Made by a program: the position numbers and the translations under genes. The notes beneath the pieces were generated by a model. That model was not told the DNA's origin. It saw only the letters and a program-made list of their open reading frames with translations, and did no database searches. Shown piece after piece: positions 5,848 through 44,319 of a stretch of 64,000 nucleotides of DNA; the stretch's first letter is position 1; each line of letters starts with the position of its first letter. Origin of the DNA: Bacteroidia bacterium. GTDB lineage: Bacteria > Bacteroidota > Bacteroidia > Chitinophagales > Chitinophagaceae. The stretch spans positions 734,806 through 798,805 of the forward strand of contig JAUICZ010000001.1 in assembly GCA_030429205.1 (NCBI GenBank), given 5' to 3'.

Positions 5848-7962
5848 ATGCAGGGTACACATACCATAGCATTGGTAGGTAATCCAAACAGCGGTAAGAG
5901 TTCGTTGTTTAATGGATTAACGGGCTTGAATCAACGTGTAGGGAACTTCCCCGGAGTAACTGTTGATAAGAAAACAGGCGTGTGTAAACTGAACAGTGAA
6001 CGTACTGTGCAGATATTGGATTTGCCGGGTACGTACAGCCTTTACCCAAAAAGTGCTGATGAACAGGTTACTTATGAGGTATTGTTGAACAACCAACACC
6101 CGGACAGGCCGGATATACTGGTAGTAGTGGCAGACGCCGCAAACCTGAAACGTAATTTATTGTTCTGTTCGCAGATAATGGATCTGGGTATGCCGGTGGT
6201 GATTGGCTTGAGTATGAACGATATAGCCAAGCGCAAAGGGGTGAGTGTTGATGTGGATGAGCTGCAGCGCCTGATGGGTGTACCTATTGTAAAGATCAAC
6301 CCCAGAAAGAATAAGGGCATATCTCAATTAAAAAAGACAATTGCTGACATAATAGATCTTGCCGAGCCGACAACCAGAACACCATTTATTGATTCGAAAA
6401 AGCATATTGCTGATTGGCTGGAAGAGTTGAAGGAGATCTGTAGTGTACCCAGTAATTATGCAGCATTACACATTGCCAGTAATCACCTGGAACTGTCTTA
6501 CCTGACAGCAGCACAGAAAATGAGGATCACTGCTTTAACTAAAGAAGCAGGCTTTAATAAGGCTAGGGAACAGGCAGATGAGATCATGCAGCGCTATAAA
6601 AAAATAGCGGGTATCATGGACAAATGTGTAGTAGAGGATAGCCCTTTGAAGAAAACTCTGCGCAGCGAACGTTTCGATAAAATATTGTTGCATCCGTTAT
6701 GGGGTAATTTGATATTATTGTTTGTCCTGTTCCTGATGTTCCAGAGTATTTTCTGGTTAGCAGAGTATCCGATGGATTGGGTAGAGCAAGGCTTTGGGGC
6801 ATTATCAGGATGGTTGAGTGATGTATTGCCAGAAGGGTTTGTACAAGACTTAGTAATAAACGGTATAGTTGCAGGTTTGGGTGGTATCGCGATTTTCATC
6901 CCGCAGATCATGATACTGTTCGGGCTTATCACTTTGTTAGAAGATACAGGCTATATGTCCCGCATTAGTTTCCTGTCAGACAGGCTGATGCGTAGTGTTG
7001 GTTTGAACGGGCGTTCTGTAATGCCGTTGATCAGCGGTATGGCATGTGCAGTGCCGGCAGTAATGGCTACACGTACCATCCAAAATCGTAAAGAGCGTTT
7101 GATCACCATTATGGTTACGCCATTAATGAGTTGTTCTGCAAGGCTGCCTGTGTATACTATTTTGATAGGTTTAGTAATACCCGACAAGTCGATTGGTATA
7201 TTCAATTTACAAGGTATAGTGTTAATGGGCTTATACCTTTTAGGGTTTTTAATGGCATTATTGGTTGCATGGATAATGCACCTGTTTATCAAATCTACAG
7301 AGCGTACTTACTTCTTGATGGAGCTGCCTGTTTATAAGGCTCCTCGCTGGAAGAATGTGGCCACTACAATGGTAGAAAAGGCAAAAATATTTGTAGTAGA
7401 TGCAGGTAAAGTGATCATGATCATATCGTTGTTGTTATGGGTGTTGGCATCTTTTGGCCCGCCTGAAAAGATGAATGCCATATCCGAAAAATATGCTACA
7501 CTGATAGAGCAGCAACCGAATAATAAGGTAGAACTGAAGAAACAAAGAGCCGCCGAAAAGCTAGAACATTCTTTTGCCGGTATTATGGGGCATACTATAG
7601 AGCCGTTGATACGTCCCTTGGGTTACGATTGGAAGATTGGTATTGCCATAGTAACCTCTTTTGCTGCAAGAGAAGTTTTTGTGGGTACTATGGCTACCCT
7701 ATATAGTGTGGGTAATGAGGCAACAGACGAAACCGTTCGTGAGAAAATGCGAGCCGCAAAACGAGCAGATGGTACTGTTGTTTATTCGCTTGCAACAGGG
7801 GTATCGCTATTGATATTTTATGTTTTTGCCATGCAGTGCATGAGCACATTAGCTATAGTTTACCGCGAGACCCGCAGCTGGAAGTATCCCGCTTTACAAT
7901 TTGTTTACATGCTGGCAATCGCCTACCTATGCGCATTTACAGCCTATTTGGCGCTTTCCTGA
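5848..7962 (+). CDS. feoB: Ferrous iron transporter FeoB
   Basis: 704 aa GTPase-coupled Fe(II) permease of the inner membrane. The ATG at 5848 is preferred to an in-frame TTG two codons earlier. The N-terminal G domain shows G1 GNPNSGKS (11-18), a switch NFPGVTVD and G3 DLPGTYSL. The G4 position reads SMND rather than the usual NxxD, which is unusual. A helical spacer precedes a membrane part with about 8-10 spans, including the FeoB gates GLNGRSVMPLISGMACAVPA and MVTPLMSCSARLPVY, and FAAREVFVGTMATLY near the C-terminus. No feoA or feoC gene is adjacent; the gene stands alone between a T9SS cargo gene and a PAS gene. Confidence 0.95.
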   Translation: MQGTHTIALVGNPNSGKSSLFNGLTGLNQRVGNFPGVTVDKKTGVCKLNSERTVQILDLPGTYSLYPKSADEQVTYEVLLNNQHPDRPDILVVVADAANLKRNLLFCSQIMDLGMPVVIGLSMNDIAKRKGVSVDVDELQRLMGVPIVKINPRKNKGISQLKKTIADIIDLAEPTTRTPFIDSKKHIADWLEELKEICSVPSNYAALHIASNHLELSYLTAAQKMRITALTKEAGFNKAREQADEIMQRYKKIAGIMDKCVVEDSPLKKTLRSERFDKILLHPLWGNLILLFVLFLMFQSIFWLAEYPMDWVEQGFGALSGWLSDVLPEGFVQDLVINGIVAGLGGIAIFIPQIMILFGLITLLEDTGYMSRISFLSDRLMRSVGLNGRSVMPLISGMACAVPAVMATRTIQNRKERLITIMVTPLMSCSARLPVYTILIGLVIPDKSIGIFNLQGIVLMGLYLLGFLMALLVAWIMHLFIKSTERTYFLMELPVYKAPRWKNVATTMVEKAKIFVVDAGKVIMIISLLLWVLASFGPPEKMNAISEKYATLIEQQPNNKVELKKQRAAEKLEHSFAGIMGHTIEPLIRPLGYDWKIGIAIVTSFAAREVFVGTMATLYSVGNEATDETVREKMRAAKRADGTVVYSLATGVSLLIFYVFAMQCMSTLAIVYRETRSWKYPALQFVYMLAIAYLCAFTAYLALS

Positions 7963-8124
7963 TAACGTTTCCTAACGAATGGTTAAGAGACTTTTATAAG
8001 TAGGAGTCTCTGCATATATCTTCTAACTTCGTAAGGATATATTGCACATTTTTTAAACTTATTGAACGTTAAAACGAAAAATTAAAAACACGCTTTTAAA
8101 GGCTTGTTTTTAAAGAATCCAACT

Positions 8125-9180
8125 ATGAGAGAGGTATTGGACTTCTTTAAGAACCTGTTCTCAAACGACGATTTCCGTTCCTTTTGGAGCTACGGAGATT
8201 GGACGTCGTTTCACAGCTGGTTCTACATGATTGGCGACTTCCTGCTATGGTCTGCCTACATGGTCATACCTATGTTCATAGTTTCTTATGCGTTAAAAAA
8301 CGGCAAAACGTTCAAAGACAATAAGCTCTATTTTCAATTCGCATTATTGGTTTGCTTGTGTGCTATGACATTCTTTGTGGATGCACTCATGTTTTGGTCA
8401 CCTATGTATCGCCTAGATGCGCTGGTGCGTTTTATAGCAGGTGCAGCCAGCTGGGTGATGGTGTTTTACGTGATGAGGAATGTGTCTAAGGCGTTTTCTA
8501 TTCGTACCGGAGAAGAAATGCAGGAGGAGATCGAGAGCCGTATAGAAGTAGAAAAAGAACTGAAGCTTAAGAACGAGCAATTACAAGAGGCAGAGCGTTT
8601 AGCAAAAATAGGATACATCAAATGGGATGTGATTAACGAACAGATAGAGTTCTCTGACTCTGTGCCTGAATTGCTGGAAGTAGACAGGAGCAGGGTATTA
8701 GATTATCAAAACCTGTTAAACATTATCCACCCCGAAGATGCCAAGCAGTTGGAGAAGGTGATCGATACGATATTCATCAGAAAGTTTTTCCCCAACTTTT
8801 ATTGTCGCATTATACTACCCAACGGAGATATTAAGCACTTATTTGTAGTCGGTCAGGTATTACTTTCTGCCGGGGGGGCTATTTCAGTTGTAAAAGGCAC
8901 AATACAAGATGCGACAGAACAACGTTTATACATACAAAGAATACAGGCACAAAACCAGGCGCTTAAAGATATTGCTTGGATACAGTCTCATAAAGTACGT
9001 GCCCCGGTAGCTTCAATATTGGGTTTAATTCAGCTGTTTAACAAAGAAGATCTTTCAGACCCGACAAATTCTGAAGTGTTAGAAGGTATTGAAGAAGCTG
9101 CTCATACACTAGATGATGTTATTAAAGAGATCAACGCCAAAACGGAAGAAGACAAAGAGAATGGTGGTAGTGCAGCAGAA
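8125..9180 (+). CDS. Membrane PAS-domain protein with a lone HisKA-like H-box, no kinase ATPase domain
   Basis: The ATG at 8125 is preferred over a TTG at 8104, giving 352 aa. Three membrane spans (about residues 33-57, 69-91 and 98-118) precede a coiled segment (125-160) and a PAS domain (about 155-270, with PEDAKQLEKVI and a PAC-like GTIQDATEQ). The C-terminal helix contains IQSHKVRAPVASILGLIQL, an H-box-like sequence with candidate H289. The protein ends about 60 residues later, without N, G1 or G2 boxes, so autophosphorylation in cis looks impossible. It may dimerise with, or be phosphorylated by, another kinase, or the helix may be purely structural. The nearest neighbours give no clue. 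Confidence 0.8.
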
Positions 9181-9352
9181 TAAATAGTGTAGCACAATGG
9201 CGCTATAGCTTCTGTTTATAACACAGCGTAACTCAAAGCAGACAAGCTTACAAAGAATATTTGCTCACCATTTCAATTGTGTATGCATTCAGGGTATAGT
9301 GATTTTTAGGGGGGATTTACCGATTGCATAAATATCCACGCTTAAATGTTGC

Positions 9353-9360
9353 TACATTTG
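9353..9360 (+). promoter_or_regulatory. -7 element TACATTTG before the outer-membrane receptor gene
   Basis: TACATTTG matches TAnnTTTG 34 bases before the GTG start of the receptor. A TTG occurs at 9324-9326, but with a 26-base spacer, longer than usual. Tentative. Confidence 0.35.
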
Positions 9361-9394
9361 TGGCTCGAAAAAATGTTTTAAATACGCAGCACTA

Positions 9395-11896
9395 GTGAGT
9401 TATAGAGTTTTACTGACGTCAATTTTTATTCTGTTTTCAATAACTGTTTTTGCACAGGAAAGCCTTGTGAAGGGTACGTCTGTCAGCGGGCGTGTTGTAT
9501 ATAATAAAGGTAAAGAACCGGTAGCATACGCTACTATCACAATACTGGATGGCAACGAAAAGGTTTTAACCGGTGCTGTTACTGATGAAGATGGAAGCTT
9601 CAAAATATCTCCTGTTGCTTATGGTAACCTCACATTGCGTGTTAGCGGTATAGGCATTAAAGAAGAGCACAAGAGTAAAGTGCTGATCACCAAACAAAGC
9701 CCCACAAAAAAAGTAGGTACTATATATGTAGCACCTGCAACAAATGTACTGGAAGAAGCCAGTGTAGTTGGTCAGCGCCAGTTTATGGAGATGGGTATTG
9801 ACAAGAAAACATTTAATGTAGAACGTAATATCACATCTGCAGGCGGAAGCGCGACAGACGTATTACAGAACATACCTTCGGTAGATGTGGACGTAGATGG
9901 TGGTGTAAGCTTAAGAGGTAAAAGCAATGTAACAATATTAATAGATGGTAAACCTGCAACACTTTTGGGTGGAGATAATGCATCAGCATTACAAAGCCTG
10001 CCTGCTGCAAGTATAGATCAGATAGAAGTAGTCACCAACCCCTCTGCCAAGTACGACGCTACGGGTATGACGGGTATTATAAATATTGTTACAAAAAGAG
10101 ATAAACGCTTTGGGCTGAATGGAAATATCAGAGCAGGTGCGGGTACAAGAGATAAGTATAATGCAGGGTTGTCTCTAAACTTGAAAAACGAAAAATGGAA
10201 TATTTTTCTAAACAGCAACTTCAGACAAAACAGAAGATACCGTCAGATAACAACACAAAGAAGTAATAAATCTGATGCAGGGCGTACATACTCTTATGAA
10301 GATAATGTGCGCATACATAGCGGCTTCTTTAACTCACTTGGTGCTGAATACAGAATAGATTCGAATAATAGTATTACACTTACTCAGAACCTGAACAAAA
10401 TGCGTTGGGGCGGTAATGGTAACTCTATTTTTAACAGATTCCCTTCAGGTAATACTCTCTCTGCTCAAGAAGATAGAGACTTTGTTTGGGGTGGCGGACC
10501 ATACTCTTCTTCTACAACATTAGATTACAAGAGAAAATTAAAGAATAGAGATGGTGAGTTAACTGCCAGCACTACATATGTTTACTCCTGGCAGGAAAGA
10601 GTGCAGAAGTATGAAACACAATGGTATGATGCAAATAGAATACCTAACACAGGTTTCGTAATACAAGATGCTCCTGGCGATGGCACAAGAAACAGCTCCA
10701 ACTCACAGGTAGATTACTCGGCCAATCACTTTACTAAAAAAGGTAAGTTAGAGGCAGGCCTTAAGTCGCAGTTATTTTGGTTATCAAGTGAGAATAAGCC
10801 ATCTGCAGACTCAGGGTCAGGTCCGGTTATAGATAGTGTTTTATTAAATGGCTATGACTATACCCAACAAATATATGCAGCATATACCAGTTGGGGCGAT
10901 CAGATAGGTAAGCTTCGCTATCAGGCAGGTTTAAGAATGGAGTATGTGTACTACGAGGGAACAACAACCCAGGTAAAAGGTCAGGTGTATACTACTGAGT
11001 TTTTAAATTTATTCCCATCAGCATTTGTTTCTTACGAGCTACCAAAGCAACAAAGTGTTTACCTGAGTTATACCCGAAGAACAGACAGACCAAGATTCTG
11101 GCAACTTTTGCCATATGTAGACCTGTCTAATCCGCAAGATACCAATAAAGGAAACCCAGACCTTGTTCCTGAGTTTGTGCACAATTTAGAGTTGAGCTAT
11201 AACAAACTGTACGATAAAGGACACAACTTTATCATTAGTGGGTATTATCAATACACGCAAAATCTGATAGGTAGGTACACCTATTTCTACGAAGAAACAG
11301 GAAGGTCTTTTACACAGCGCAGAAACTTAAATGCCGGTGTTACATATGGTTTGGAGCTTACAGGTACTATGCAAATGGTAAAACGTATTTGGGATGTGAC
11401 ACTGAATACCAATTTATTCCAAAACAAGATTCTAGGTAGTAGTATAGACCCTACACTGGACAATAGTGGCTTTGGCTGGTTGGGTAAACTAAACACGAAT
11501 GTAAAACTACCTTGGAACTTCTCATTCCAGATCAACTATAATTACCGTAGCCCAAAGATATTATCGCAAGGTATTCGTAAAGATGCACAATGGGTAGATG
11601 TTGCGCTACGTAAGACTTTCTGGGATAGCAAAGCTAACATTGTGTTAAATGTATCAGACATCTTTAATACCCAGAAATTTACTACCGAGATAGATAATGC
11701 TAACTTTTTCTCTACTAATTATACTGACAGAGAAACCCGTATTGGTAACATCAACTTCTCGTATCGCTTTGGTGGAGGCGAAAAACGCGCCTTAAGTGGT
11801 AGAAACAGAAAAGGGAAAATAGAGGATCTGAAGCCCGATTTGAATAAGGATAGAGATCAGGTGAAAGATAGCGAAGATGGCGGTGGTGCTTATTAG
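9395..11896 (+). CDS. TonB-dependent outer-membrane receptor, carboxypeptidase-regulatory-like plus OMP_b-brl_3 type
   Basis: 833 aa. GTG start, because no in-frame ATG gives the signal peptide (residues 1-21, ending TVFAQ). Residues about 28-112 form a carboxypeptidase-regulatory-like beta-sandwich (VSGRVV, AYATITILDG, TDEDGSFKI). A plug-like region follows (about 130-235: SATDVLQNIPSVDVD, GVSLRGKSNVTILIDGKPA, IDQIEVVTNPSAKYDATGMTGIINIV), then a long beta-barrel with many aromatic/Tyr strands. This is typical of Bacteroidota importers or surface proteins for large ligands. No SusD-like partner is adjacent, so the substrate cannot be inferred. The C-terminus is a charged tail (KGKIEDLKPDLNKDRDQ) rather than the usual aromatic last strand. 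Confidence 0.88.
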   Translation: MSYRVLLTSIFILFSITVFAQESLVKGTSVSGRVVYNKGKEPVAYATITILDGNEKVLTGAVTDEDGSFKISPVAYGNLTLRVSGIGIKEEHKSKVLITKQSPTKKVGTIYVAPATNVLEEASVVGQRQFMEMGIDKKTFNVERNITSAGGSATDVLQNIPSVDVDVDGGVSLRGKSNVTILIDGKPATLLGGDNASALQSLPAASIDQIEVVTNPSAKYDATGMTGIINIVTKRDKRFGLNGNIRAGAGTRDKYNAGLSLNLKNEKWNIFLNSNFRQNRRYRQITTQRSNKSDAGRTYSYEDNVRIHSGFFNSLGAEYRIDSNNSITLTQNLNKMRWGGNGNSIFNRFPSGNTLSAQEDRDFVWGGGPYSSSTTLDYKRKLKNRDGELTASTTYVYSWQERVQKYETQWYDANRIPNTGFVIQDAPGDGTRNSSNSQVDYSANHFTKKGKLEAGLKSQLFWLSSENKPSADSGSGPVIDSVLLNGYDYTQQIYAAYTSWGDQIGKLRYQAGLRMEYVYYEGTTTQVKGQVYTTEFLNLFPSAFVSYELPKQQSVYLSYTRRTDRPRFWQLLPYVDLSNPQDTNKGNPDLVPEFVHNLELSYNKLYDKGHNFIISGYYQYTQNLIGRYTYFYEETGRSFTQRRNLNAGVTYGLELTGTMQMVKRIWDVTLNTNLFQNKILGSSIDPTLDNSGFGWLGKLNTNVKLPWNFSFQINYNYRSPKILSQGIRKDAQWVDVALRKTFWDSKANIVLNVSDIFNTQKFTTEIDNANFFSTNYTDRETRIGNINFSYRFGGGEKRALSGRNRKGKIEDLKPDLNKDRDQVKDSEDGGGAY

Positions 11897-11936
11897 TACT
11901 ACAAGAAGTAGAACGAAAAAGTTGTAAATTGTTCCC

Positions 11937-12692
11937 ATGAAAAAAATCTTCTCTATATCATTTATGGTATGTATGGCTTTAAGTTTCCAAAGCTGTGCAC
12001 AATCTTGGGGCGATATTTTGAACGCCGGTAAAAAAGTTATTAAAAACGGCGGTGCTACAGGTGGGGATGTAAATAGCCTTTCTAATTCAGAGATCATTGC
12101 AGGTTTAAAACAGGCATTGGAGATAGGGTCAAGAAATTCCAGTAACCAACTTCATGCTGTTAATGGATATTTCGGCAACCAGCTTATTAAGATAGCCATG
12201 CCGCCCGAAGCTCAAAAGATAGAAAGAACACTACGTTCACTAGGTTTTGGCAAGCAGGTAGATCAGGCTATACTTTCTATGAACCGTGCTGCAGAAGATG
12301 CTGCTGTTAAAGCCGCACCGATATTTGTAAATGCCATTAAAGGTATGACCATACAAGACGGGTTAGGAATATTAAAAGGTGGTAATGGCGCAGCAACCAG
12401 CTATTTAAAAGGCAGAACTACTGCTCAATTGACAAATGCTTTCCGTCCGGTGATCAACAATTCGTTGAATAAAGTAAATGCTACTAAGTACTGGACAGAC
12501 ATCATAAATATTTACAACAGACTACCAACAACATTTAATAAAGTAAATCCTGATCTTGCGGCTTATGTAACAGAAAGAGCATTGCATGGGTTGTTTGTAA
12601 CTGTAGAGCAGGAAGAAAACAAAATAAGGCAAAATCCTTCAGCTCGTGTAAACGATCTGTTGAGAAAAGTATTTGGCGCAAAAGGGCTGTAA
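11937..12692 (+). CDS. DUF4197 lipoprotein
   Basis: 251 aa. The N-terminus MKKIFSISFMVCMALSFQSC is a lipoprotein signal with lipobox FQSC. The remainder is mostly helical and matches my recollection of the DUF4197 family (LSNSEIIAGLKQALEIG near the start, AATSYLKGRTTAQLTNAFRPVI in the middle, and ALHGLFVTVEQEENKIRQNP near the end). The molecular function of the family is not established. It follows the receptor gene by 40 bases on the same strand and may be co-transcribed with it. Confidence 0.82.
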   Translation: MKKIFSISFMVCMALSFQSCAQSWGDILNAGKKVIKNGGATGGDVNSLSNSEIIAGLKQALEIGSRNSSNQLHAVNGYFGNQLIKIAMPPEAQKIERTLRSLGFGKQVDQAILSMNRAAEDAAVKAAPIFVNAIKGMTIQDGLGILKGGNGAATSYLKGRTTAQLTNAFRPVINNSLNKVNATKYWTDIINIYNRLPTTFNKVNPDLAAYVTERALHGLFVTVEQEENKIRQNPSARVNDLLRKVFGAKGL

Positions 12693-12743
12693 AGCATACT
12701 GCCGATGATTTTTTGACCGTTATAGAACTAAAAGTACTTGGCT

Positions 12744-14357
12744 ATGGAAAACCAACAGGAAAACAACCTAAGTAACTGGTGGGAAAACCTATCATTCGAT
12801 CATAAAGATCAGTACAATTTAAATGAAGAGGGAGATATTCTTCTAAACGCACTGGACGATTTTAAGGAACGTTCTGTAGGTAAAGTTGATACCACGAATG
12901 CGGATACTGTACTGAAGCTATTACAAGAAAAATATACAGAAGTAGCCGAAAAGCTGAACGAGCTGCTTACGGAATGGAATGCCGCAGACGACAAATCTTC
13001 GTTGATAGGTAAAGTATACCGACTGAAGGAGTATTTGCAGCATGCAAGTGCAATTGGTGATTTTCATAGCTTGTACCGAAAGGTTACAGAAATAGAAAAA
13101 GAGCTCAGCGAGATAATAGAGCAGAACTACGCTAAAAAGGTGACGCTCGTAGAGCAGGCAGAGCAGATGGTTGATAGTGAAGATTGGAAGGAGACTGCTG
13201 AAAAGATGAAGCACCTGACGGAAGACTGGAAAAACACAGGGCACATAGATAAAAAACGTAGCGACGAGCTATGGCAAAGGTTAGAAACAGCACGCGATAA
13301 GTTTTTCGAAAAGAAAAGAGAGCACCACGAGGATGTAGAAAAAGAAATGCTGCAGAACCTGGATCTTAAATTAGAATTGGTAGAGCTGGCAGAAAAATTA
13401 GCTGCATCAGAAGATTGGAAGAACACGACCAAATCTTTTAAAGAGTTGATGGAGAAATGGAAATCCATCGGCCGTACCATGCACGATAAAAACGAAGAAT
13501 TGTGGGAGAAGTTTATCGGAGCCAGCAATGCATTCTTCGAGAGAAAAAGAGCACACTTTGATGTTATACACAAAGAGCAGGAAGAAAATCTAAAAGCAAA
13601 AGAACTACTGGTTGAGCAAGCCGAAGCGATAAAGGATAGTGAAGATTGGAATGCCACAACTAAGCAGCAGACAGAGTTAATGGAGGCATGGAAAAAAATA
13701 GGCCGTGTACCTCGTGAGCAATCAGACGAAATATGGAATAAGTTTAATGCAGCCAGAGATCATTTCTTTGAAAGGAAGAGAGCACATGGTGAAGCATTTA
13801 AAATAGAGTTGGACGACAACTACGCACAAAAACTGGCCTTGCTGAAACGTGCAGAAGAGCTGCAAAGCTCAACCCAATGGAGAGAAACTACTACAGAGAT
13901 CAATGAGTTGATGGATGAGTGGAAGAAAATAGGCCCGGTTCCGCGTAAGCATAGTGATGAAATATGGAATAGGTTTATTGGTGCACGTAAAAAATTCTTT
14001 GAGCGTAAAGATGCCAATCGCGAAAAACGCAAAGCACAATACGAGAAAAAATCAAAAGAGAGAATATCGCAGACTGATAACTTTATAGATAAGTTAGCAG
14101 CAGAGCTAAAGGAAGAAGAGGAAAAACTGATTGATTTTAAAGAAGGGTTACAGAATATAACACCAGGGATGAAGAAGGAGAACGAGTTAAGAGAACACCT
14201 CACAAAACTCATCTCGCAAACGGAGAAGAAGGTAGAACACAAAAAAGAAAAGATAGAAGAGGCGAAGAAGCAATACGAAGAGCTTGTTGAAGCTGAAAAA
14301 GAGAAAGAAGCTAAGAAGCAACAGGCAGAAACAGACAGCGCCTCAAAAGAAGTTTAA
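12744..14357 (+). CDS. DUF349 repeat protein
   Basis: 537 aa from the ATG at 12744 (a TTG two codons upstream is ignored). It contains four consecutive helical DUF349 units of about 76 residues (starting near 128, 204, 280 and 356), each with the pattern SEDW, then ELMxxWKxIG, then SDEIWxxFxxAR, then FFERKRA. A long charged coiled coil follows (about 430-530). Proteins with DUF349 repeats are widespread in Bacteroidota, and their role is not settled. The protein is very rich in Glu and Lys and lacks a signal peptide, so it is probably cytoplasmic. The gene ends inside a strong bidirectional terminator. Confidence 0.85.
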   Translation: MENQQENNLSNWWENLSFDHKDQYNLNEEGDILLNALDDFKERSVGKVDTTNADTVLKLLQEKYTEVAEKLNELLTEWNAADDKSSLIGKVYRLKEYLQHASAIGDFHSLYRKVTEIEKELSEIIEQNYAKKVTLVEQAEQMVDSEDWKETAEKMKHLTEDWKNTGHIDKKRSDELWQRLETARDKFFEKKREHHEDVEKEMLQNLDLKLELVELAEKLAASEDWKNTTKSFKELMEKWKSIGRTMHDKNEELWEKFIGASNAFFERKRAHFDVIHKEQEENLKAKELLVEQAEAIKDSEDWNATTKQQTELMEAWKKIGRVPREQSDEIWNKFNAARDHFFERKRAHGEAFKIELDDNYAQKLALLKRAEELQSSTQWRETTTEINELMDEWKKIGPVPRKHSDEIWNRFIGARKKFFERKDANREKRKAQYEKKSKERISQTDNFIDKLAAELKEEEEKLIDFKEGLQNITPGMKKENELREHLTKLISQTEKKVEHKKEKIEEAKKQYEELVEAEKEKEAKKQQAETDSASKEV

Positions 14358-27202: not shown

Positions 27203-27982
27203 ATGATTTGCGACAAAATTTTCACTTCGTTCAAAGAATGTATAAGACAAGTTGAAAGTGATTTTCAAGTTGATTTATCTAATAATAAGAGTGCAGTGCT
27301 ATTGAGAGGAGAGAACGACTTATATCCCAAAACTGAGCCTTCAATGAGACGTTTTTTGACGGCTTATGAAAATGAAACTAAAGAGTATATAGAAAGTTTC
27401 CTTTTAACTTCTCCATTTATTGATTTTCAAGAAATATATTCGGAGTATCATGCAGAACTAAATAATTTATCAGAGATAGAGTCGCTAGGTTTTTTACAGC
27501 ATTATGGATTTCCAACAGATTTAATTGATTTATCTCCCAGTATAAAAACCGCACATTTCTTTGCACATCGTGGTAATGCCGATAAAATGTATGCTTATAT
27601 AGGGGTATTTGATACTAGTAGTGTATCAAATTATTATGATATTGTTGATATATCTAATCATCCATATGCATTAAGACCTAAAATGCAGAATGCATGGGCT
27701 CTCAGACATGAAAGGGGAATTTTTGATTTTAAGAGTAAAAAATGTGACAAACTATTTAAAGTTCATTGGTATAAGTTTAAAAAAGCTGAATCTGATATTA
27801 TTGATATTAATAGAAATGATCCTTTTGTTTACCCTAAAGAAAGTGAAGTTGTTCACTTTTTTTCCGAGGATGTGTTATCTATTATTAGAAGCCATTATAA
27901 TGACAGAAAATACACGAATGATCAAATACGCCCAGTGGAAAAGAAGCTAGAAGAACTTTATAAGAAAATGATTAAAGAATAA
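27203..27982 (+). CDS. FRG-domain protein
   Basis: 259 aa, AT-rich compared with both neighbours. The FRG motif is visible: LLRGENDL (R35, G36) and, further on, LQHYGFPTDLIDLSPSIKTAHFFA (99-121), the QHYG...D-L-D arrangement of the family. FRG domains occur in many accessory and phage-defence contexts, and a biochemical activity is not firmly established. No signal peptide. It stands alone between the kinase-RapZ gene and clpP and ends at a strong bidirectional terminator, like a single-gene insertion. Confidence 0.82.
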   Translation: MICDKIFTSFKECIRQVESDFQVDLSNNKSAVLLRGENDLYPKTEPSMRRFLTAYENETKEYIESFLLTSPFIDFQEIYSEYHAELNNLSEIESLGFLQHYGFPTDLIDLSPSIKTAHFFAHRGNADKMYAYIGVFDTSSVSNYYDIVDISNHPYALRPKMQNAWALRHERGIFDFKSKKCDKLFKVHWYKFKKAESDIIDINRNDPFVYPKESEVVHFFSEDVLSIIRSHYNDRKYTNDQIRPVEKKLEELYKKMIKE

Positions 27983-36074: not shown

Positions 36075-36620
36075 TTATTTCAGCAATAACCTAAATTGGA
36101 TAATACCCTTATCGAGTAATGATCTTTGAATGTGTGAATAATCGAGTATATGATTAACTAGATAGTTAGAGTCAAATATTGACAATGTTTTATTATTCAA
36201 AATAAAGCAACGATTTGATGTGACTTTTCCGTTCCATTGATTAACTCCAAAGTCACTAAAGAGGATAGCATCAAACCAGTTTCTTAGTTTAATCTTTAAG
36301 TATTTGACGTTTACCGACATTGTATCATATTCCATTACTTGAGATAATAGTTGAAGAGCTTCTGACAAATACAAAGCTTTTGAACCTATATTTTTTAGAA
36401 GTGAGTATAGCAACTCTGGCATATAAGTTTCTAGTACTCTCAAATTTCCTTCTAACTGGGTGTTTACCATAGAAACTGTCTTATTCAGAAAGAAGTTGGG
36501 TCTTGACGGTAATAGAGTGCTTATTTTATTCGTATTCAGAATGTATGGTTGGGTTTTGAAATGCTCGTTTATATAATTAGTTAGATTATAGGTGGTTCTA
36601 TTTTCTGAAGATGATGTCAT
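36075..36620 (-). CDS. Unknown protein overlapping the HNH endonuclease gene
   Basis: 181 aa, AT-rich, mostly helical, without signal peptide or membrane span. Its ATG lies 23 bases inside the end of the HNH gene, implying translational coupling. I recognise no family or catalytic motif. A stretch ALYLSEALQLLSQVMEYDTMSVNVKYLKIKL is present in the middle. It could be an accessory or immunity-like partner of the nuclease, or an unrelated passenger. Confidence 0.62.
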   Translation of the reverse strand: MTSSSENRTTYNLTNYINEHFKTQPYILNTNKISTLLPSRPNFFLNKTVSMVNTQLEGNLRVLETYMPELLYSLLKNIGSKALYLSEALQLLSQVMEYDTMSVNVKYLKIKLRNWFDAILFSDFGVNQWNGKVTSNRCFILNNKTLSIFDSNYLVNHILDYSHIQRSLLDKGIIQFRLLLK

Positions 36621-37341
36621 TATGATATTCCAAGAATGTTTTGTCTGGTAAGAACTTATGAGGTTTGATAATTTTCTTGTTGTTATACTTTTTAAAGTGA
36701 TATGCCAATCCTTTGTTATCAGTTAGTAATTCTTGAGCTACAAGTATTTTATAATCTGGTGTTATAGTAATGAGCCCTTTATCAAATGCTTTATCATGAA
36801 GGGCATTTAAGGCTAGCCCATTCTGTGGGTTAGTTCTATTTTTCGTGTCATCCTTCCATGGTATTATATGACTAGCGATCAATAACTCTGTCGTATTGAT
36901 ACCCGTTATGCAACATTTATTTTCAAATGCAGCTAATACTGCACTTCTAAAGAAGTCTTGATATACTCTTGTTTTAACTAACCTCAGTTTATCTTTCCCT
37001 TCAGGTAGTTTTTTAGTACTGTATGTACTAGATTTTTTTAGTTCTAGTTTAGAACTCTCTAATACAAGCTTATTCCAGTTATTATTGAACTCATCCCATA
37101 TCTCTTCATCTAAGTGGCTTCTGTTCGTTAAACCAACTACGCCTCTTGCTTTAAGTTCAGGGTCTAAACTTCCAAAGTTGCCAAGCTTTCTGGCAACAGC
37201 TCCGGGTGTTCGCCCTATTAATTCTGCAACTCTTTTTACTTCCTTGTTTCGAGAATGTGCTTGCCCAAAAGGTATCTCACAATACAGTTTGAATGCAATT
37301 ATGGTTTGTTCTCTAGTCCAAAGGTTTCTACGTTGATTCAT
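36598..37341 (-). CDS. HNH endonuclease, restriction-like
   Basis: 247 aa. The N-terminal 75 residues (WTREQTIIAFKLYCEIPFG, IGRTPGAVARKLGNF, ARGVVGLTNRS) form a helical module, probably DNA-binding, found with HNH nucleases of restriction type. The catalytic part shows CCITG (143-147), ASHIIPW (H158), NRTNPQNGLALNALHDKAFDKGL (N174, H182, D183) and TITPDYK, an HNH_2/PF13391-like pattern. It is AT-rich and followed by an overlapping unknown gene. No methylase gene is adjacent, so a classic restriction-modification pair is not evident. Confidence 0.85.
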   Translation of the reverse strand: MNQRRNLWTREQTIIAFKLYCEIPFGQAHSRNKEVKRVAELIGRTPGAVARKLGNFGSLDPELKARGVVGLTNRSHLDEEIWDEFNNNWNKLVLESSKLELKKSSTYSTKKLPEGKDKLRLVKTRVYQDFFRSAVLAAFENKCCITGINTTELLIASHIIPWKDDTKNRTNPQNGLALNALHDKAFDKGLITITPDYKILVAQELLTDNKGLAYHFKKYNNKKIIKPHKFLPDKTFLEYHNDIIFRK

Positions 37342-37580: not shown

Positions 37581-37835
37581 TTACTCAAACCCTTCGCTAA
37601 AAAACTCTTCGAGCGTCATGCCGAAGGCGCGGACGATTTTAAGCAGATTGACAAACGTGATATTGTGCCCTCTTTCATATCTGCCATATTGTGTTCTGGG
37701 GAAATCGTGAGCATACGCAAAAGTCTCATGGCTAGAGTAACCATGTTCAATTCTAAGTTCCCTTATTCTTTTACCCAACATTTTCATGTATTCCTCTTCT
37801 GTAGGCAACTTTAGCGACTTTTTACTTTTGCTCAT
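37581..37835 (-). CDS. XRE-family helix-turn-helix regulator
   Basis: 84 aa. One HTH_3 domain (about 18-75): LGKRIRELRIEHGYSSHETFAYAHDFPRTQYGRYERGHN, then LLKIVRAFGMTLEEFFSEGF. It is a small DNA-binding protein of phage/plasmid style. It is divergent from the 71-aa gene at 37933. The 97-base gap between them holds a palindrome that could be its operator. Confidence 0.88.
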   Translation of the reverse strand: MSKSKKSLKLPTEEEYMKMLGKRIRELRIEHGYSSHETFAYAHDFPRTQYGRYERGHNITFVNLLKIVRAFGMTLEEFFSEGFE

Positions 37836-38756: not shown

Positions 38757-39614
38757 TTAGCTCGCGTCGTAAGCGGTGATCTGCTCTTTACAAAGAGCAT
38801 CGGCAATGGATTGTAGGGTACGTACACGCTCTATAAGTGTGGCCAGTTCTGTTTCTGAGATGGTGTAGGTTTTGCTGTAGCGGGCATCTATATAGCCGCG
38901 CTTCAAGAGGTCGAACAGGTGGCGCTCTTCTTTACTGTTTTGCGGAAACACCAAAGCCAGCTCTTTAGAAAAACGCTTGGTGTAGCGGTATAGTTTCGAC
39001 AGGCTGTGTGTACGTGGTTTGTAACCCGTATATACCAGCAATACGGCATTGTAGGTACGCTCTGCTGCCTGGTGTAATTGGAATGCTCCAATTTTTAAAT
39101 CCTTCTTTTCTAGTCTGCCTTCTGTAATTTCTAAGAAACTTAATGCACTCTTAAACCATATTTCATAATCTTCCAGCGCAATGGCTTTCTTTTCCTGCGG
39201 TGTCAATTCGCGGGGTTGTGCAAAGGTTTCGTTGCCTGCATCGTACAGTAGTATCCCTTCTTTTTGTATATCGGCAAAAAAGTAGCGGTTCTGTTCCAGC
39301 ATGCGGTTGATGTGCTCCATGTTGTGCGCTACAATGTTCACGGGCGTGTGCAGGTCGAACTTATTTTCTACATGGCTTTCTATCTCGTAGTCCTTCAGCT
39401 CGTTATCTTTTTTGGTCACTACCAGTATATCATAATCGCTGATGTACTCGTAAGTGATGTTGTCTTTCACGGTAATATCTTCTACCCAGTTGCCCGTGGC
39501 ATGGCTGCCGAACAGGATGATCTTCTCCGGGTCTGCCACCTGTTTGATGATCTCGATGATCCTGTGTACCTGCTCTTGTTTATGTTCGGGCAAATGCGCC
39601 AGTGATGTGTTCAT
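38757..39614 (-). CDS. Nucleotidyltransferase-HEPN fusion protein
   Basis: 285 aa. The N-terminal minimal nucleotidyltransferase (MNT) has LFGSHATGNW (36-43) and SDYDILVV (59-66), the GSxxxG and DxD signature; a third acidic residue may be D87. Residues about 140-280 form a HEPN-like four-helix domain: ALEDYEIWFKSALSFLE, GAFQLHQAAERTYNAVLLVYTGYKPRTHSLSKL and GYIDARYSKTY. No canonical RX4-6H RNase motif is obvious. MNT and HEPN as separate genes are a toxin-antitoxin pair in other bacteria; as a fusion the role is unclear. Confidence 0.82.
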   Translation of the reverse strand: MNTSLAHLPEHKQEQVHRIIEIIKQVADPEKIILFGSHATGNWVEDITVKDNITYEYISDYDILVVTKKDNELKDYEIESHVENKFDLHTPVNIVAHNMEHINRMLEQNRYFFADIQKEGILLYDAGNETFAQPRELTPQEKKAIALEDYEIWFKSALSFLEITEGRLEKKDLKIGAFQLHQAAERTYNAVLLVYTGYKPRTHSLSKLYRYTKRFSKELALVFPQNSKEERHLFDLLKRGYIDARYSKTYTISETELATLIERVRTLQSIADALCKEQITAYDAS

Positions 39615-39729: not shown

Positions 39730-41652
39730 ATGAGAATAAGTAAGTTGATAATAGATGAGTCTAAAACTAATAGTAAAGGACTGCAAAAAATAAATCTGTA
39801 TAAAAAGAGTTTTGGCGAGTTAGTTGCGCTAGTTGGTAAAAATGGTGCAGGCAAAAGTAGAATACTGGATATTATCAAGGATTACATAAAAAATGTAGAC
39901 GCAGATGATTTATTAGATCAACAATTAATTTATATTCCAAAAGAAGTTTCTGGTTCTTACAATAATAGAGTTAATGAAGCAATAAATGAGTTCCAAAAAA
40001 CAGGGCTTTCTATCGATGAATTTTTTCTAAAGGAAAGAAACCACGCGAGGGCACTAAATACTATAGCGAGTAACGTTAATAAACTTGGATCTCACTATAT
40101 AAAAGTAATTGATAGCAAAGTTTTAACTAGCATTAAGCAAAGTTTACAAACTAAAAATGGTTTTAAAGATATTATAGATTATATATCAGGCAATTTTGAT
40201 TTTACTTCATCAAGTAAACCAGTAATAAATGAGTTTGACTATATAAATTCCAATAGCACAATTTCAATATTACAGGATATTGCAGACAAATGTGCAATCG
40301 ACAGGCTGATTCACTTAAAAGAGATTGATGAAAAACAAAAGAGTGATAGATTAGATACTAGTGTATCTAATAAAAATTTTCAAATAATAAAAAAATACAT
40401 AAAAACATTCCTTGGCAAAGATTTGTCTTTTGATGAAAATTTTAAGGGAAATGTATTAAGTAGTAATCTGACCTTAGATTCATCAAAGTTTGAAATAGAT
40501 ATTTTGTCGCCTGGTGAAAAGACTCTTTTTGCATATGCTATGTTATTCGCTTTTTACGAAATCTATAGCAGTCTTAATCCAAAACATTACATAATAATAA
40601 TTGATGAGCCAGAGTTGCATTTACATCCTGGAGCTCAAGTGCAATTAATAGATGCCTTGCGCAGACTTGTAAAGAATACGGGACAGTTATGGGTTGCGAC
40701 TCACTCTTTAGCAATCATATCTCATTTAGAGTATAATGAGATTATGCTAGTAAAAGACAACCAGTTACTACCACCGTCTACCGATCGTTTAGAGGAGATT
40801 TTTAGAGATTTAATGGTAGTAGATGAACATAGAGAAGAGTTGCATGAATTCATATCATCGCTAAGTGATTGGGCGTACTCTAGATTTATTTTTCAATGCT
40901 TTAGAACACCAGAAATAATAACTGCTTCAAACAAAAATGACCCACAGTATCAATTATTTAAGAAGTTCATCTCTTCATCTAATTCAATCAAATTTTTAGA
41001 TTTTGGTGCAGGACATGGTAGAGTCCTTAAACTAATTAATGAAGATGATGATTTAGCTAAAAAAATTCAATATTCTGCATATGAGCCTAACAAAAAATTT
41101 AAAAATGAGTTGGAAGAAATCGCAGACAGTTATTATGATGATGTAGATAGCATTCCTAAAAAAGAATTTAATGTGGTTTTACTATGTAATGTTTTGCATG
41201 AGATTGAGGTTACAGAATGGGTAGAAACACTCAATAAAATTAAGGGTTCATTGAAAGATGACGGATACCTTATAATAATAGAGGATTTACATCTACCGAA
41301 AGGAGAAAATGCAAATAAGTTTGGTTATGTCATTTTAGATAGCGAGTATTTAGATGATTTAATGGGTTTTGAGGATGACAGTAATGCAATAGTATTAAAA
41401 CATGAGAACCCTAGGTATAAAGATCGGCTAGTATTTTATGCGGTAAAAAAGGGGGATGTTAATACAAATATTCAGTGTGTTTGGAATGCTGTAGCTAGGC
41501 TTTCTGACGATCTTTTAGAAAAAATTAAGGATATACGTTTTAATGATAACGACGTGAAAAATGCAAGGTTATATGCTAACTACTCACAACTTTATATAAA
41601 CAGCTTATTAGCATCGCAGGAGGTAAAAAAGGTTATGGAAAGTACAAAATGA
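39730..41652 (+). CDS. ABC/SMC-type ATPase fused to a class-I SAM-dependent methyltransferase
   Basis: 640 aa, strongly AT-rich against its neighbour alaS. Residues 1-345 form an AAA_21-like ATPase with Walker A GKNGAGKS (36-43), ABC-type signature LSPGEKT (259-265), Walker B IIIIDEPELHLHPG (288-301) and H-loop VATHS (322-326). Between Walker A and the signature lies a helical insert (about 75-240). Residues about 405-575 form a methyltransferase domain with motif I LDFGAGHGRVL (423-433), acidic ligand YEPN (451-454), NVVLLCNVLHEIE (481-493) and DDGYLIIIED (510-519). A further helical tail ends at 640. It is a single uninterrupted frame. Substrate unknown; the gene stands alone on its strand. 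Confidence 0.85.
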   Translation: MRISKLIIDESKTNSKGLQKINLYKKSFGELVALVGKNGAGKSRILDIIKDYIKNVDADDLLDQQLIYIPKEVSGSYNNRVNEAINEFQKTGLSIDEFFLKERNHARALNTIASNVNKLGSHYIKVIDSKVLTSIKQSLQTKNGFKDIIDYISGNFDFTSSSKPVINEFDYINSNSTISILQDIADKCAIDRLIHLKEIDEKQKSDRLDTSVSNKNFQIIKKYIKTFLGKDLSFDENFKGNVLSSNLTLDSSKFEIDILSPGEKTLFAYAMLFAFYEIYSSLNPKHYIIIIDEPELHLHPGAQVQLIDALRRLVKNTGQLWVATHSLAIISHLEYNEIMLVKDNQLLPPSTDRLEEIFRDLMVVDEHREELHEFISSLSDWAYSRFIFQCFRTPEIITASNKNDPQYQLFKKFISSSNSIKFLDFGAGHGRVLKLINEDDDLAKKIQYSAYEPNKKFKNELEEIADSYYDDVDSIPKKEFNVVLLCNVLHEIEVTEWVETLNKIKGSLKDDGYLIIIEDLHLPKGENANKFGYVILDSEYLDDLMGFEDDSNAIVLKHENPRYKDRLVFYAVKKGDVNTNIQCVWNAVARLSDDLLEKIKDIRFNDNDVKNARLYANYSQLYINSLLASQEVKKVMESTK

Positions 41653-41697
41653 GTCCCACCGTCTTTTTCTTTACTTTTGCAGCCATAATATTACAGT

Positions 41698-44319
41698 ATG
41701 CTAACTGCGAACGAGATACGCCAACAGTTTTTAGATTTCTTCAAAGAAAAAGGGCACCAGATAGTACCCTCTGCACCTATTGTGGTGAAGAACGACCCCA
41801 CGCTGATGTTCATCAACGCGGGGATGAACCAGTTTAAAGATGCTTTTTTGGGTAACCAGCCTGCGCCCAGTCCGCGTGTGGCAGATACGCAGAAATGTTT
41901 GCGCGTGAGCGGTAAGCACAACGATCTGGAAGAGGTGGGTGTAGATACCTACCATCATACCATGTTCGAGATGCTGGGCAACTGGAGCTTTGGCGACTAC
42001 TTTAAGAAAGAAGCGATTGCGTGGAGTTGGGAGCTGCTGACTGAGGTATACAAAATTGATAAAGACCGTTTGTACGTCACCATTTTTGAAGGCGACAGCG
42101 GCGACAACTTACCTAAAGATCAGGAGGCGTACGACTACTGGAAAGAGTGGATAGCAGAAGACCGCATACTGTTAGGTAATAAGAAAGATAATTTTTGGGA
42201 GATGGGCGACATTGGCCCTTGCGGGCCATGTAGCGAGATACATATAGACTGCCGTAGCGATGAAGAACGTGCACAGGTAGATGGTAAGACACTGGTAAAT
42301 GCAGACCATCCGCAGGTGATAGAGATATGGAACAATGTGTTCATGGAGTTCAACCGCCAGAAAGACGGCAGCCTACAGCAGCTACCTGCCAAGCATGTAG
42401 ATACCGGTATGGGACTGGAGCGTTTGGTGCGCGTATTGCAAAACAAACAAAGTAACTACGATACAGACCTGTTCACCAACACCATTGGTGAGATAGAAAA
42501 GATAACGGGTAAGAAATACGGCTATACGGATAGTAAAGAAGATATTGCCTTCCGTGTTATCGCCGATCATATTCGTGCTATTGCCTTTACGATTACTGAT
42601 GGTCAGTTACCATCGAGTAACGGAGCTGGTTATGTGATACGCAGGATCTTGCGCCGTGCGGTGCGTTACTATTTCTCTTATTTAGATTATAAGCAACCAT
42701 TACTGAACCAATTGATACCACAATTGGCAGCACAGTTCGGCGGAGTATTCCCTGAGTTGAAAGACCAACAGAGCTTGGTGGTAAAAGTGATCAAAGAAGA
42801 AGAAGATGCTTTCCTTAAAACTTTGGATAAGGGTTTAAAGAAAGTAGACGAGATAACAGCTAACAATAAAGATAATACCATCTCGGGTGTAGTAGCATTT
42901 GAGCTGAACGATACTTACGGTTTCCCGATTGACCTTACAGAACTCATTGCCAAAGAAAAAGGCTTTGAGGTAGACCTGAAAGGTTTTGAGGCAGAGCTAC
43001 AAAAGCAAAAAGACCGTAGCCGCGCCGCAACAGCACTGGATACAGAAGACTGGGTAGTGGTGAACAAAGGCAACGAAGTGAACTTTGTAGGCTACGATAG
43101 CTTAGAGGCTAAGGCAGAGGTATTGCGCTACCGTAAGGTAAAAGCCAAGAAGAAAGAACTATACCAACTGGTACTGAACACCACACCTTTCTACGCAGAG
43201 AGTGGGGGACAAGTGGGTGATAAAGGAACCTTGACCATCGGTACAGATGTCATCAACATCTTCGATACGAAGAAAGAGAACGACCTCATCATCCACTTTA
43301 CAGATAAGATACCTGCCAGCTTAGAGGGTGAGGTAACAGCAAAAGTAAACGACAGCAAACGTCGCGAGACAGAGATACACCACAGTGCCACACACTTGTT
43401 GCATGCAGCATTGCGCAGTGTACTGGGCGATCATGTAGAACAAAAAGGTTCTTTAGTAAACGATGAACATCTTCGTTTCGACTTCTCACACTTTGCAAAA
43501 GTGACGGATGAAGAGGTTGCGCAGATTGAGGCTATGGTGAATGAAAAGATCCGCCAAAACCACCCTGTGGTAATCAAAGAAATGGCCAAGGACGAAGCAG
43601 TGGAGATGGGTGCTATGGCTTTGTTTGGCGAGAAGTATGGCGATAAAGTACGTGTGGTGATCATAGACCCTGAATACTCTATAGAGCTTTGTGGTGGTAC
43701 GCATGTAGGTGCAACAGGAGAGCTGGGTATGTTTAAAATAAAGCACGAGAGTGCAGTAGCTGCAGGGGTACGCCGTATAGAAGCTGTGAGCGGTAAAGCG
43801 GCTGAACAATATATCAACAACAACCTGAACCTGCTGGAAGAGTTGAAAGCAGCACTCAACAACCAAAAGAACCCACTGCAGGCAGTTGAAAAACTACAAA
43901 AAGAAAAAGCACAGCTAGAGAAACACGCAGAGATGCTGGAGGCTCGTCAACTGGTAGCCATTCGCAACGAGGTACTACAGAAAGATGAAGTAGTAGGCGA
44001 CATAAACTTTGTTGCAGACATCGTTGAAGTTGCTTCTGCAGATGCGCTTAAAAAATTATGCTTCGATATTAAGCACCATGTGAATGACCATGTGGTAGTA
44101 TTAGGTGCTAATATAGACGGTAAAGCATTTGTAGCTATTGGGGTAGACGAAAAGGTAATAGCAGCAAAAGAAATAGACGCTAACACTCTCATCAAGAAGC
44201 ATGTAGCACCACTGATAAAAGGTGGTGGCGGTGGTCAGAAAACACTGGCTACAGCAGGTGGTCAAAACGCCGCTGCACTGCAACAAGTGATAGATACCGT
44301 GAAGGGGCTATTAGCTTAA
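41698..44319 (+). CDS. alaS: Alanyl-tRNA synthetase
   Basis: 873 aa. Catalytic domain begins IRQQFLDFFKEKGHQIVPSAPIVVKNDPTLMFINAGMNQFKD, followed by THHTMFEMLGNWSFGDYFK-like segments (YHHTMFEMLGNWSFGDYFK), MGDIGPCGPCSEIH and NGAGYVIRRILRRAVR. The editing domain shows HHSATHLLHAALR and IELCGGTHVGATGE (zinc-site Cys/His). The C-terminal DHHA1-type C-Ala domain ends with KGGGGGQKTLATAGGQ. Length and order are standard. It is core sequence immediately after the AT-rich ATPase-methyltransferase gene. Confidence 0.97.
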   Translation: MLTANEIRQQFLDFFKEKGHQIVPSAPIVVKNDPTLMFINAGMNQFKDAFLGNQPAPSPRVADTQKCLRVSGKHNDLEEVGVDTYHHTMFEMLGNWSFGDYFKKEAIAWSWELLTEVYKIDKDRLYVTIFEGDSGDNLPKDQEAYDYWKEWIAEDRILLGNKKDNFWEMGDIGPCGPCSEIHIDCRSDEERAQVDGKTLVNADHPQVIEIWNNVFMEFNRQKDGSLQQLPAKHVDTGMGLERLVRVLQNKQSNYDTDLFTNTIGEIEKITGKKYGYTDSKEDIAFRVIADHIRAIAFTITDGQLPSSNGAGYVIRRILRRAVRYYFSYLDYKQPLLNQLIPQLAAQFGGVFPELKDQQSLVVKVIKEEEDAFLKTLDKGLKKVDEITANNKDNTISGVVAFELNDTYGFPIDLTELIAKEKGFEVDLKGFEAELQKQKDRSRAATALDTEDWVVVNKGNEVNFVGYDSLEAKAEVLRYRKVKAKKKELYQLVLNTTPFYAESGGQVGDKGTLTIGTDVINIFDTKKENDLIIHFTDKIPASLEGEVTAKVNDSKRRETEIHHSATHLLHAALRSVLGDHVEQKGSLVNDEHLRFDFSHFAKVTDEEVAQIEAMVNEKIRQNHPVVIKEMAKDEAVEMGAMALFGEKYGDKVRVVIIDPEYSIELCGGTHVGATGELGMFKIKHESAVAAGVRRIEAVSGKAAEQYINNNLNLLEELKAALNNQKNPLQAVEKLQKEKAQLEKHAEMLEARQLVAIRNEVLQKDEVVGDINFVADIVEVASADALKKLCFDIKHHVNDHVVVLGANIDGKAFVAIGVDEKVIAAKEIDANTLIKKHVAPLIKGGGGGQKTLATAGGQNAAALQQVIDTVKGLLA

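Follow-up and report, generated by a model that had tools for sequence, protein, structure and literature searches.

A gene at positions 39730 to 41652 of the window, the whole 64,000-nucleotide stretch of DNA analyzed here, encodes a 640-residue protein in which an N-terminal, PtuA-like ABC ATPase and a SAM-dependent methyltransferase are fused in one frame. From sequence comparisons and from analogy with known systems, we give somewhat better than even chances to the explanation that this is a solitary, horizontally mobile protein of immunity, in which a PtuA/PrrC-like ATPase controls a methyltransferase that occupies the position of the nuclease in related proteins.

The fusion open reading frame (ORF), like all of its features described below, lies on the forward strand; it begins with an ATG that lines up with the starts of its relatives and runs for 640 codons without an internal stop. 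All five of its Pfam matches, which cover both domains, exceed the curated cutoffs. We compared 44 sequences: the window protein; L003 to L005; L006 to L040 minus L014; L111, L112, and L114, from a search of the class; and L101 to L103, from IMG/VR. L014, a repeat of L003, and L086, which looks the same as L037, were dropped. All 44 carry both domains in one frame, and three of them (L022, L025, and L035) are truncated by contig ends. The first-pass annotation had proposed the single-frame fusion and had named an assembly artifact joining two genes as what would undo it; the fusion is borne out, and an assembly join or chance frame is ruled out because the same two-domain frame is found again in other genomes. 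The reported AT-richness also holds: the GC content of the fusion gene is 30.7%, versus a mean of 41.3% (standard deviation, 3.6), ∼3 standard deviations higher, for the 41 other nonoverlapping ORFs of ≥200 codons in the window. One of these ORFs has a GC content below that of the fusion. It is a gene at 27203 to 27982 (+) with an FRG domain (1.2e-10) and, at 30.4%, the lowest GC content among the 42 long ORFs of the window. The source genome has one full-length copy of the fusion.

The ATPase domain (residues 1 to 345; 39730 to 40764) matches Pfam families AAA_15 (3.5e-16; residues 1 to 330) and AAA_21 (4.5e-15; residues 31 to 331). The motifs previously quoted for it are present, and with Pfam and VIA-align they confirm an ABC-type ATPase. 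In Walker A (GKNGAGKS, residues 36 to 43; 39835 to 39858), G36, N38, G41, and K42 are kept in all 41 untruncated sequences. The ABC signature (LSPGEKT, residues 259 to 265; 40504 to 40524) has S260 and G262 in 44/44 sequences; in Walker B (IIIIDEPELHLHP; 40591 to 40629), D292 is present in 44/44 and E293 in 43/44, the other having Gln; and H325 of the ATHS switch motif (40696 to 40707) is invariant (44/44), as are P294 and H299. Linker helices follow (residues 346 to 415; 40765 to 40974), partly of low confidence in the full model, with L361 and D404 in 44/44 sequences and Q406 in 42/44.

Sequence and model comparisons indicate that the nearest solved ATPases are the PtuA proteins of Septu and retrons. 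VIA-align superimposed residues 1 to 369 on PtuA (8ee4) with a Z score of 17.4 over 287 residues (4.9 Å), and the PADLOC PtuA model matched the fusion at 2.9e-23; the NCBIfam PtuA model gave 50.8 bits against a cutoff of 500. When run against PDB sequences, the family profile matched the retron Ec83 ATPase (2.7e-21) and also other PtuA proteins and AriA; its matches to AriA, OLD, and GajA were weaker than those to PtuA. Foldseek, given the full AlphaFold2 model (pLDDT, 86.8; pTM, 0.65), ranked retron and Septu PtuA chains first, at TM-scores of ∼0.3; these TM-scores and the pTM of the full model leave the relative placement of the domains uncertain. Residues 366 to 640 modeled alone gave a pLDDT of 93.0 and a pTM of 0.89.

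Conservation is uneven along the chain. Across the 41 uncut sequences (820 pairs), mean pairwise identity within the ATPase is 41% for residues 250 to 345 and 16% for residues 60 to 250, and elsewhere it is 36% for the methyltransferase, 33% for the linker, and 29% for the C terminus. The diverging ATPase residues, ∼60 to 250, may be behaving as a sensing surface would, and the identity pattern is one that would be produced by an unchanging engine and effector combined with a sensor region that diversifies.

The C-terminal half contains a class I SAM methyltransferase domain (residues 416 to 576; 40975 to 41457), as Pfam, family matches, and fold comparison all agree, in line with the earlier assignment. 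Pfam matches are to Methyltransf_23 (8.7e-9; residues 416 to 519), Methyltransf_12, and Methyltransf_11, and 37 of 37 family members match Methyltransf_23 and Methyltransf_12 (E ≤ 0.01). The domain has a Rossmann-like fold and a glycine-rich SAM-binding motif I (FLDFGAGHGR; 40993 to 41022), in which D424 is found in 42/44 sequences (Glu in two), G428 and R431 in 44/44, and G430 in 40/44. Outside motif I, H490-E491 (41197 to 41202), a candidate general base, and E518 (41281 to 41283), a second candidate catalytic acid, are present in all 44, as are W497, G525, E526, and G532; N487 is present in 43. Since the genome scan retrieved relatives by the pattern CNVLHEI or by a Walker B pattern, conservation of CNVLHEI is partly built in; E518, W497, G525, and E526 belonged to no retrieval pattern. 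H490 and E491 also occur in copies found by other routes (L003 to L005, L111, L112, L114, and L101 to L103): L101 and L103 read TNVLHE, and L102 keeps both residues even though the string NVLHE is missing from it. Because the catalytic residues of both halves are nearly unvaried among the 44 sequences, both active sites appear to be under constraint. A helical hairpin (residues 577 to 640; 41458 to 41649) ends the predicted structure, with N624 in 44/44 sequences. The unvaried G525-E526 and G532 (41302 to 41325) and N624 (41599 to 41601) perhaps mark a substrate or dimer site.

By sequence and model, the methyltransferase resembles polyketide C-methyltransferases and small-molecule O/N-methyltransferases. 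Its profile matched AprA MT2 (9.5e-7), DisA, and CurJ (0.003) in the PDB, with METTL6 only at ∼0.1. When the profiles are aligned, H490 coincides with a His in both AprA MT2 and DisA, and E518 with a Glu in AprA MT2. Polyketide synthase (PKS) C-methyltransferases are described in PMC9821293 as having a His-Glu dyad in the active site; in an anammox enzyme covered there, the Glu lies four residues past the His, so the partner of H490 could be another acid, for example E491. VIA-align gave the CurJ C-methyltransferase a Z score of 15.9 against residues 385 to 576 of the model, and CurJ was also its top match by Z for the C-terminal model alone (16.0; 181 residues, 3.4 Å). The fold does not name the substrate, because 50 entries lie within two Z units of CurJ and Foldseek, given the same C-terminal model, ranked plant N-methyltransferases first. 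Ordinary DNA base methylation is unlikely, since the motifs [DNS]PP[YFWH], PC[QN], and N[ILV]P[YFW] were each found in 0/44 methyltransferase domains. No nuclease was among the structural matches listed for the C-terminal half.

The family is widespread but rare, and its distribution is patchy. Protein searches found full-length fused relatives at 33 to 43% identity in genomes of the same family and class, and the 36 relatives of alignment A2 share 22 to 41% identity with the fusion over the aligned length. One relative, in a genome of the same taxonomic family, looks identical to the Taibaiella lutea copy in length, motifs, and neighbors (L003 and L014), which makes a member of the Chitinophagaceae, the family of Taibaiella, the probable host. 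Scanning 84,980 genomes by sequence pattern, with tblastn as confirmation, gave at least 80 loci. Thirty-five of these (L006 to L040) match on into the methyltransferase, each in one open frame by script and by reading; at least 45 (L041 to L085) align from the ATPase part, none beyond residue 435, and were left out of the family. Counting its own genome, the fusion occurs in at least 3 of 195 genomes of the taxonomic family (E ≤ 1e-10), at least 2 of 395 genomes of the phylum (single sequence, 1e-20), and at least 6 of 395 genomes of the class (profile, 1e-30), two of the six being taken as those of L012 and L015; these counts are lower bounds because three to six candidates were scored per genome. 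Such rarity excludes a broadly conserved core gene, the other finding that the first-pass annotation had said would refute its view. That annotation had also suggested tabulating fused and split homologs: the methyltransferase profile found no stand-alone family methyltransferase in 296 Bacteroidota genomes (E ≤ 1e-12), only the fused gene of the window.

Searches of Escherichia coli, plasmid, and phage collections yielded no full-length copy. IMG/VR gave no match to the window protein as a single query; searched with alignments, it yielded L086 and L100 to L103, L100 being the contig of L086, and its L087 to L091 match the ATPase part only. A tree of 37 members, some on long end branches and some from metagenome bins, spans Bacteroidota, Pseudomonadota, Myxococcota, Bacillota, Fibrobacterota, Planctomycetota, and Verrucomicrobiota. 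It requires 10 phylum changes, versus a mean of 15.5 for shuffled labels (0 of 200 shuffles were as low), with at least three changes on starred branches for each of Bacteroidota and Pseudomonadota. As phylum grouping far exceeds that of shuffled labels, a large share of the descent may have been vertical or within phyla; we read the tree as mostly descent within phyla plus some transfer, and more than one phylum change is no proof of transfer. Of the horizontal transfer suggested earlier, some transfer between phyla is supported: members mostly group by phylum, and the tree contains a few changes.

In the window, the fusion ends 45 bases before a gene read from its sequence as alaS (41698 to 44319, +). 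The DNA resembles that of two same-genus genomes from alaS onward (position 41697), and the upstream sequence differs (read in one of them, L097); no clean, exact empty site was found in these genomes. Upstream and divergent lies a gene with nucleotidyltransferase and HEPN domains (38757 to 39614, −; Pfam HEPN, 4e-15; Polbeta, 1.3e-7). It carries both domains within a single chain; in MNT-HEPN toxin-antitoxin pairs, the two are usually on separate genes. Beyond it are a helix-turn-helix (HTH) protein resembling restriction-modification (RM) control proteins (37581 to 37835, −; PADLOC Control_protein, 3.9e-10) and an HNH nuclease, a candidate restriction enzyme (36598 to 37341, −; PADLOC HNH, 9.4e-93). 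The HNH gene overlaps an AT-rich, 181-residue ORF without a Pfam match (36075 to 37341, −, for the two), and these two and the control-protein-like HTH gene possibly form a small restriction module. The fusion was earlier placed in an accessory island; a short run of accessory genes (nucleotidyltransferase-HEPN, HTH, and HNH) does adjoin it, but the term is loose for what is a lone gene among core genes. None of the five upstream neighbors scanned is a PtuB partner, and alaS is downstream; the HNH gene, 2.4 kb away on the opposite strand, falls in Pfam HNH_2. Pfam and PADLOC found no AriB TOPRIM gene among the window's scanned neighbors. No RM gene sits beside the fusion, and the single HsdM_N match of its genome lies ∼0.65 Mb away on the same contig.

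Relatives provide the link to RM. We listed the neighbors of the fetched relatives, often naming them by eye; scanned the 117 nearest neighbors of 34 loci with PADLOC, where matches among the best 25 of 371 families include type I RM, Gabija, and others; and then scanned 20 chosen neighbor proteins individually (PADLOC and Pfam). Four relatives (L017, L018, L020, and L031) lie in or against type I RM loci. In L018, one strand encodes HsdM (896 to 2464), a Schlafen/AlbA_2 protein, a KAP NTPase (PADLOC PDC-S49), HsdS (6663 to 7898), the fusion (7911 to 9788), and HsdR (10238 to 13471). The order in L017 is the fusion, a 226-residue gene, a type I methyltransferase, HsdS, PDC-M59A, a Fic protein (PDC-M59B), and an HsdR-like protein; the 226-residue gene between the fusion and hsdM (9247 to 9927) matched nothing in Pfam or PADLOC within the limits applied. 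L031 reads HsdS end, fusion, GajA, GajB. In L020, the fusion and an AlbA_2 gene are followed at the contig end by a 72-residue start homologous to the L018 HsdR, too short for a family match. L018 and L020, which come from a sheep omasum Fibrobacter bin and a rumen alphaproteobacterial bin, have very similar HsdR starts as well as Schlafen/AlbA_2 genes by the fusion, a likeness that reflects either recent transfer or misbinned contigs. Elsewhere, L013 has PDC-S26 and a type II methyltransferase nearby, L027 has PDC-M68B, and L015 has a ResIII protein with a type III-like match (1.1e-16).

Type I subunits thus occur near 4 of 38 loci; the HsdM_N density (176 matches in 198 Bacteroidia genomes, with a mean size of 3.6 Mb assumed) predicts ∼0.4% per locus. 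The binomial probability, 3e-5 (4e-4 with the rate doubled), is rough, since the 38 loci come from several phyla, some contigs are short, and any type I subunit was counted; with only the two loci that have HsdM itself, the values are 0.012 and 0.045 (rate doubled). When L111, L112, and L114, viewed by eye only, are added, the links number 4 of 41 nonviral loci. RM and BREX methyltransferases mark self, and this, with the presence of some fusions inside RM loci, would fit a methyltransferase that protects or marks host RNA, DNA, or a phage-exposed structure, loaded on its substrate by the ATPase and without toxicity. We consider this unlikely: no nuclease or other partner recurs, and with amino-methyltransferase motifs in none of the 44 domains, ordinary DNA base methylation is hard to credit.

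Many copies stand alone, for example beside genes that by eye resemble dnaK, clpB, ribonucleotide reductase, or trpG plus a C-terminal protease. No partner gene recurs within 8 kb (E ≤ 1e-5; L003, L086, and L111 to L117 were left out of this test) and no neighbor family occurs in more than three loci; the sole cluster found in three reads like TonB-linked outer-membrane proteins. A nondefense accessory function, in which a horizontally moved, ATP-driven methyltransferase acts on a small molecule or in repair, would account for these solitary copies next to housekeeping genes and for the polyketide C-methyltransferases and small-molecule O/N-methyltransferases being the nearest solved methyltransferases. 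It seems improbable to us, since the ATPase is nearest to PtuA-type defense ATPases, RM and phage contexts occur, and no neighbor family exceeds three loci.

Phage genes accompany the fusion on three virus-like contigs: in L101 and L102, it comes after genes for a phage tail or baseplate, and L086 (the L037 gene) is ∼5 kb from filamentous-phage genes. The sole matched neighbor in L103 is a repressor-like gene, and HTH-like genes, identified by eye, lie just upstream in L021 and L037. A counterdefense or addiction gene borne by a prophage or island and serving the mobile element could produce both the phage-gene proximity and the HTH genes in L021 and L037. This explanation is distinctly improbable, given that no antitoxin-like partner recurs, that 50,697 phage records gave no match with two queries, and that plasmids gave three matches to the ATPase part with one query and none with another. 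Least probable by far is that the methyltransferase fold serves as a SAM sensor, with the ATPase responding to SAM loss, for example through phage SAM hydrolases: the conserved SAM-binding motif fits and the remainder is conjecture, whereas H490, E491, W497, E518, G525, and E526, all outside motif I, are kept in 44/44 sequences, and this points to catalysis or to a fixed substrate.

The reading as an ATPase-gated immune protein is supported because the ATPase is closest to defense ATPases (PtuA) by fold and profile and because relatives occur in RM loci and near phage genes; through these relatives, the proposed link with phage defense gains support. It is weakened because most relatives are lone, with no recurrent partner and RM links at only 4 of 41 loci, and because the nearest methyltransferase folds are mostly biosynthetic rather than toxins. 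We infer mobility, gating, defense, and toxicity as follows. The N-terminal domain, an ABC ATPase akin to those of PtuA, OLD, and AriA, would sense infection or the inhibition of a restriction system of the host, with its rapidly diverging middle region as the probable sensor, and an ATP-dependent rearrangement would release or activate the C-terminal methyltransferase. That domain, with its putative His/Glu-based active site, would then methylate an essential cell or phage component, so that phage growth stops; it would take the place of the nuclease in PtuAB, PARIS, OLD, and PrrC/RloC. Our guess is that the target may lie in translation, for example tRNA, by analogy with PrrC, RloC, AriB, and Retron-Eco7. 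Rather doubtful, in our estimation, is the stronger claim that this widespread single-gene family guards restriction systems by means of its PtuA/PrrC-like ATPase and that, when these are blocked, a toxic methyltransferase stops translation or another essential process.

Comparison with known systems separates what is familiar in this protein from what is not. PADLOC 2.0.0 and NCBIfam 20.0 gave no model spanning both halves among the best 25 of 109 and of 106 matches, respectively. The open-access literature that we searched, a body to which the 2020 ABC-ATPase survey by Krishnan et al. does not belong, yielded neither a description of such an ATPase-methyltransferase fusion nor an earlier example of a comparable methyltransferase effector. 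PtuA, of Septu and of the type I-A retrons Ec78/Eco7 and Ec83, provides the best fold and profile matches to the ATPase; Septu differs in having PtuB, an HNH partner, where the fusion has its own C-terminal methyltransferase. OLD, GajA of Gabija, and AriA(B) of PARIS share an ABC ATPase with a C-terminal or partner effector. OLD proteins are described as an ATPase joined to TOPRIM (PMC10568477), and AriA as an ATPase that detects proteins of the phage and releases AriB, a tRNase (PMC12409363). The effector of OLD, GajA, and PARIS is a TOPRIM nuclease; in the fusion, a methyltransferase stands in its place.

PrrC and RloC are alike in plan: one chain with an N-terminal ABC NTPase and a C-terminal effector. 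PMC3710099 describes this NTPase as controlling activity and the effector as a HEPN tRNase. A table in that source places the PrrC/RloC group often in RM operons, with RhuM- or Fic/Doc-like genes, while its text describes RloC as not RM linked. PrrC is held inactive by its type I RM system and freed when phage blocks that system, according to PMC3710099 and PMC12707154, and PrrC and PARIS are termed RM guardians in the latter. Some fusion copies likewise belong to type I RM loci: the one in L018 lies between hsdS and hsdR, and the one in L017 is accompanied by a Fic gene; PrrC sits inside its type I RM locus, whereas the window fusion does not. The effectors differ, HEPN in PrrC and RloC and a methyltransferase in the fusion.

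As for the methyltransferase, PKS C-methyltransferases (CurJ, AprA MT2, and PsoF) and related O/N-methyltransferases share its fold and the aligned His and Glu (AprA MT2). Unlike them, the fusion includes an ATPase, has W and GE motifs that are conserved, and ends in a C-terminal hairpin; no PKS setting was seen around its copies. DNA base methyltransferases differ in their motif IV (DPPY-like) or PCQ, found in 0/44 fusion domains. We rate the ATPase module and the overall plan as known and the effector chemistry as new. The ATPase-gated defenses compared here act via HNH, TOPRIM, or HEPN nucleases; under the stronger claim made above, methylation would be the killing step, whereas the related systems named cut nucleic acid. 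A conserved family with a methyltransferase as its effector would add a chemistry to bacterial immunity, hint at a new target of methylation, and provide a system that consists of a single gene.
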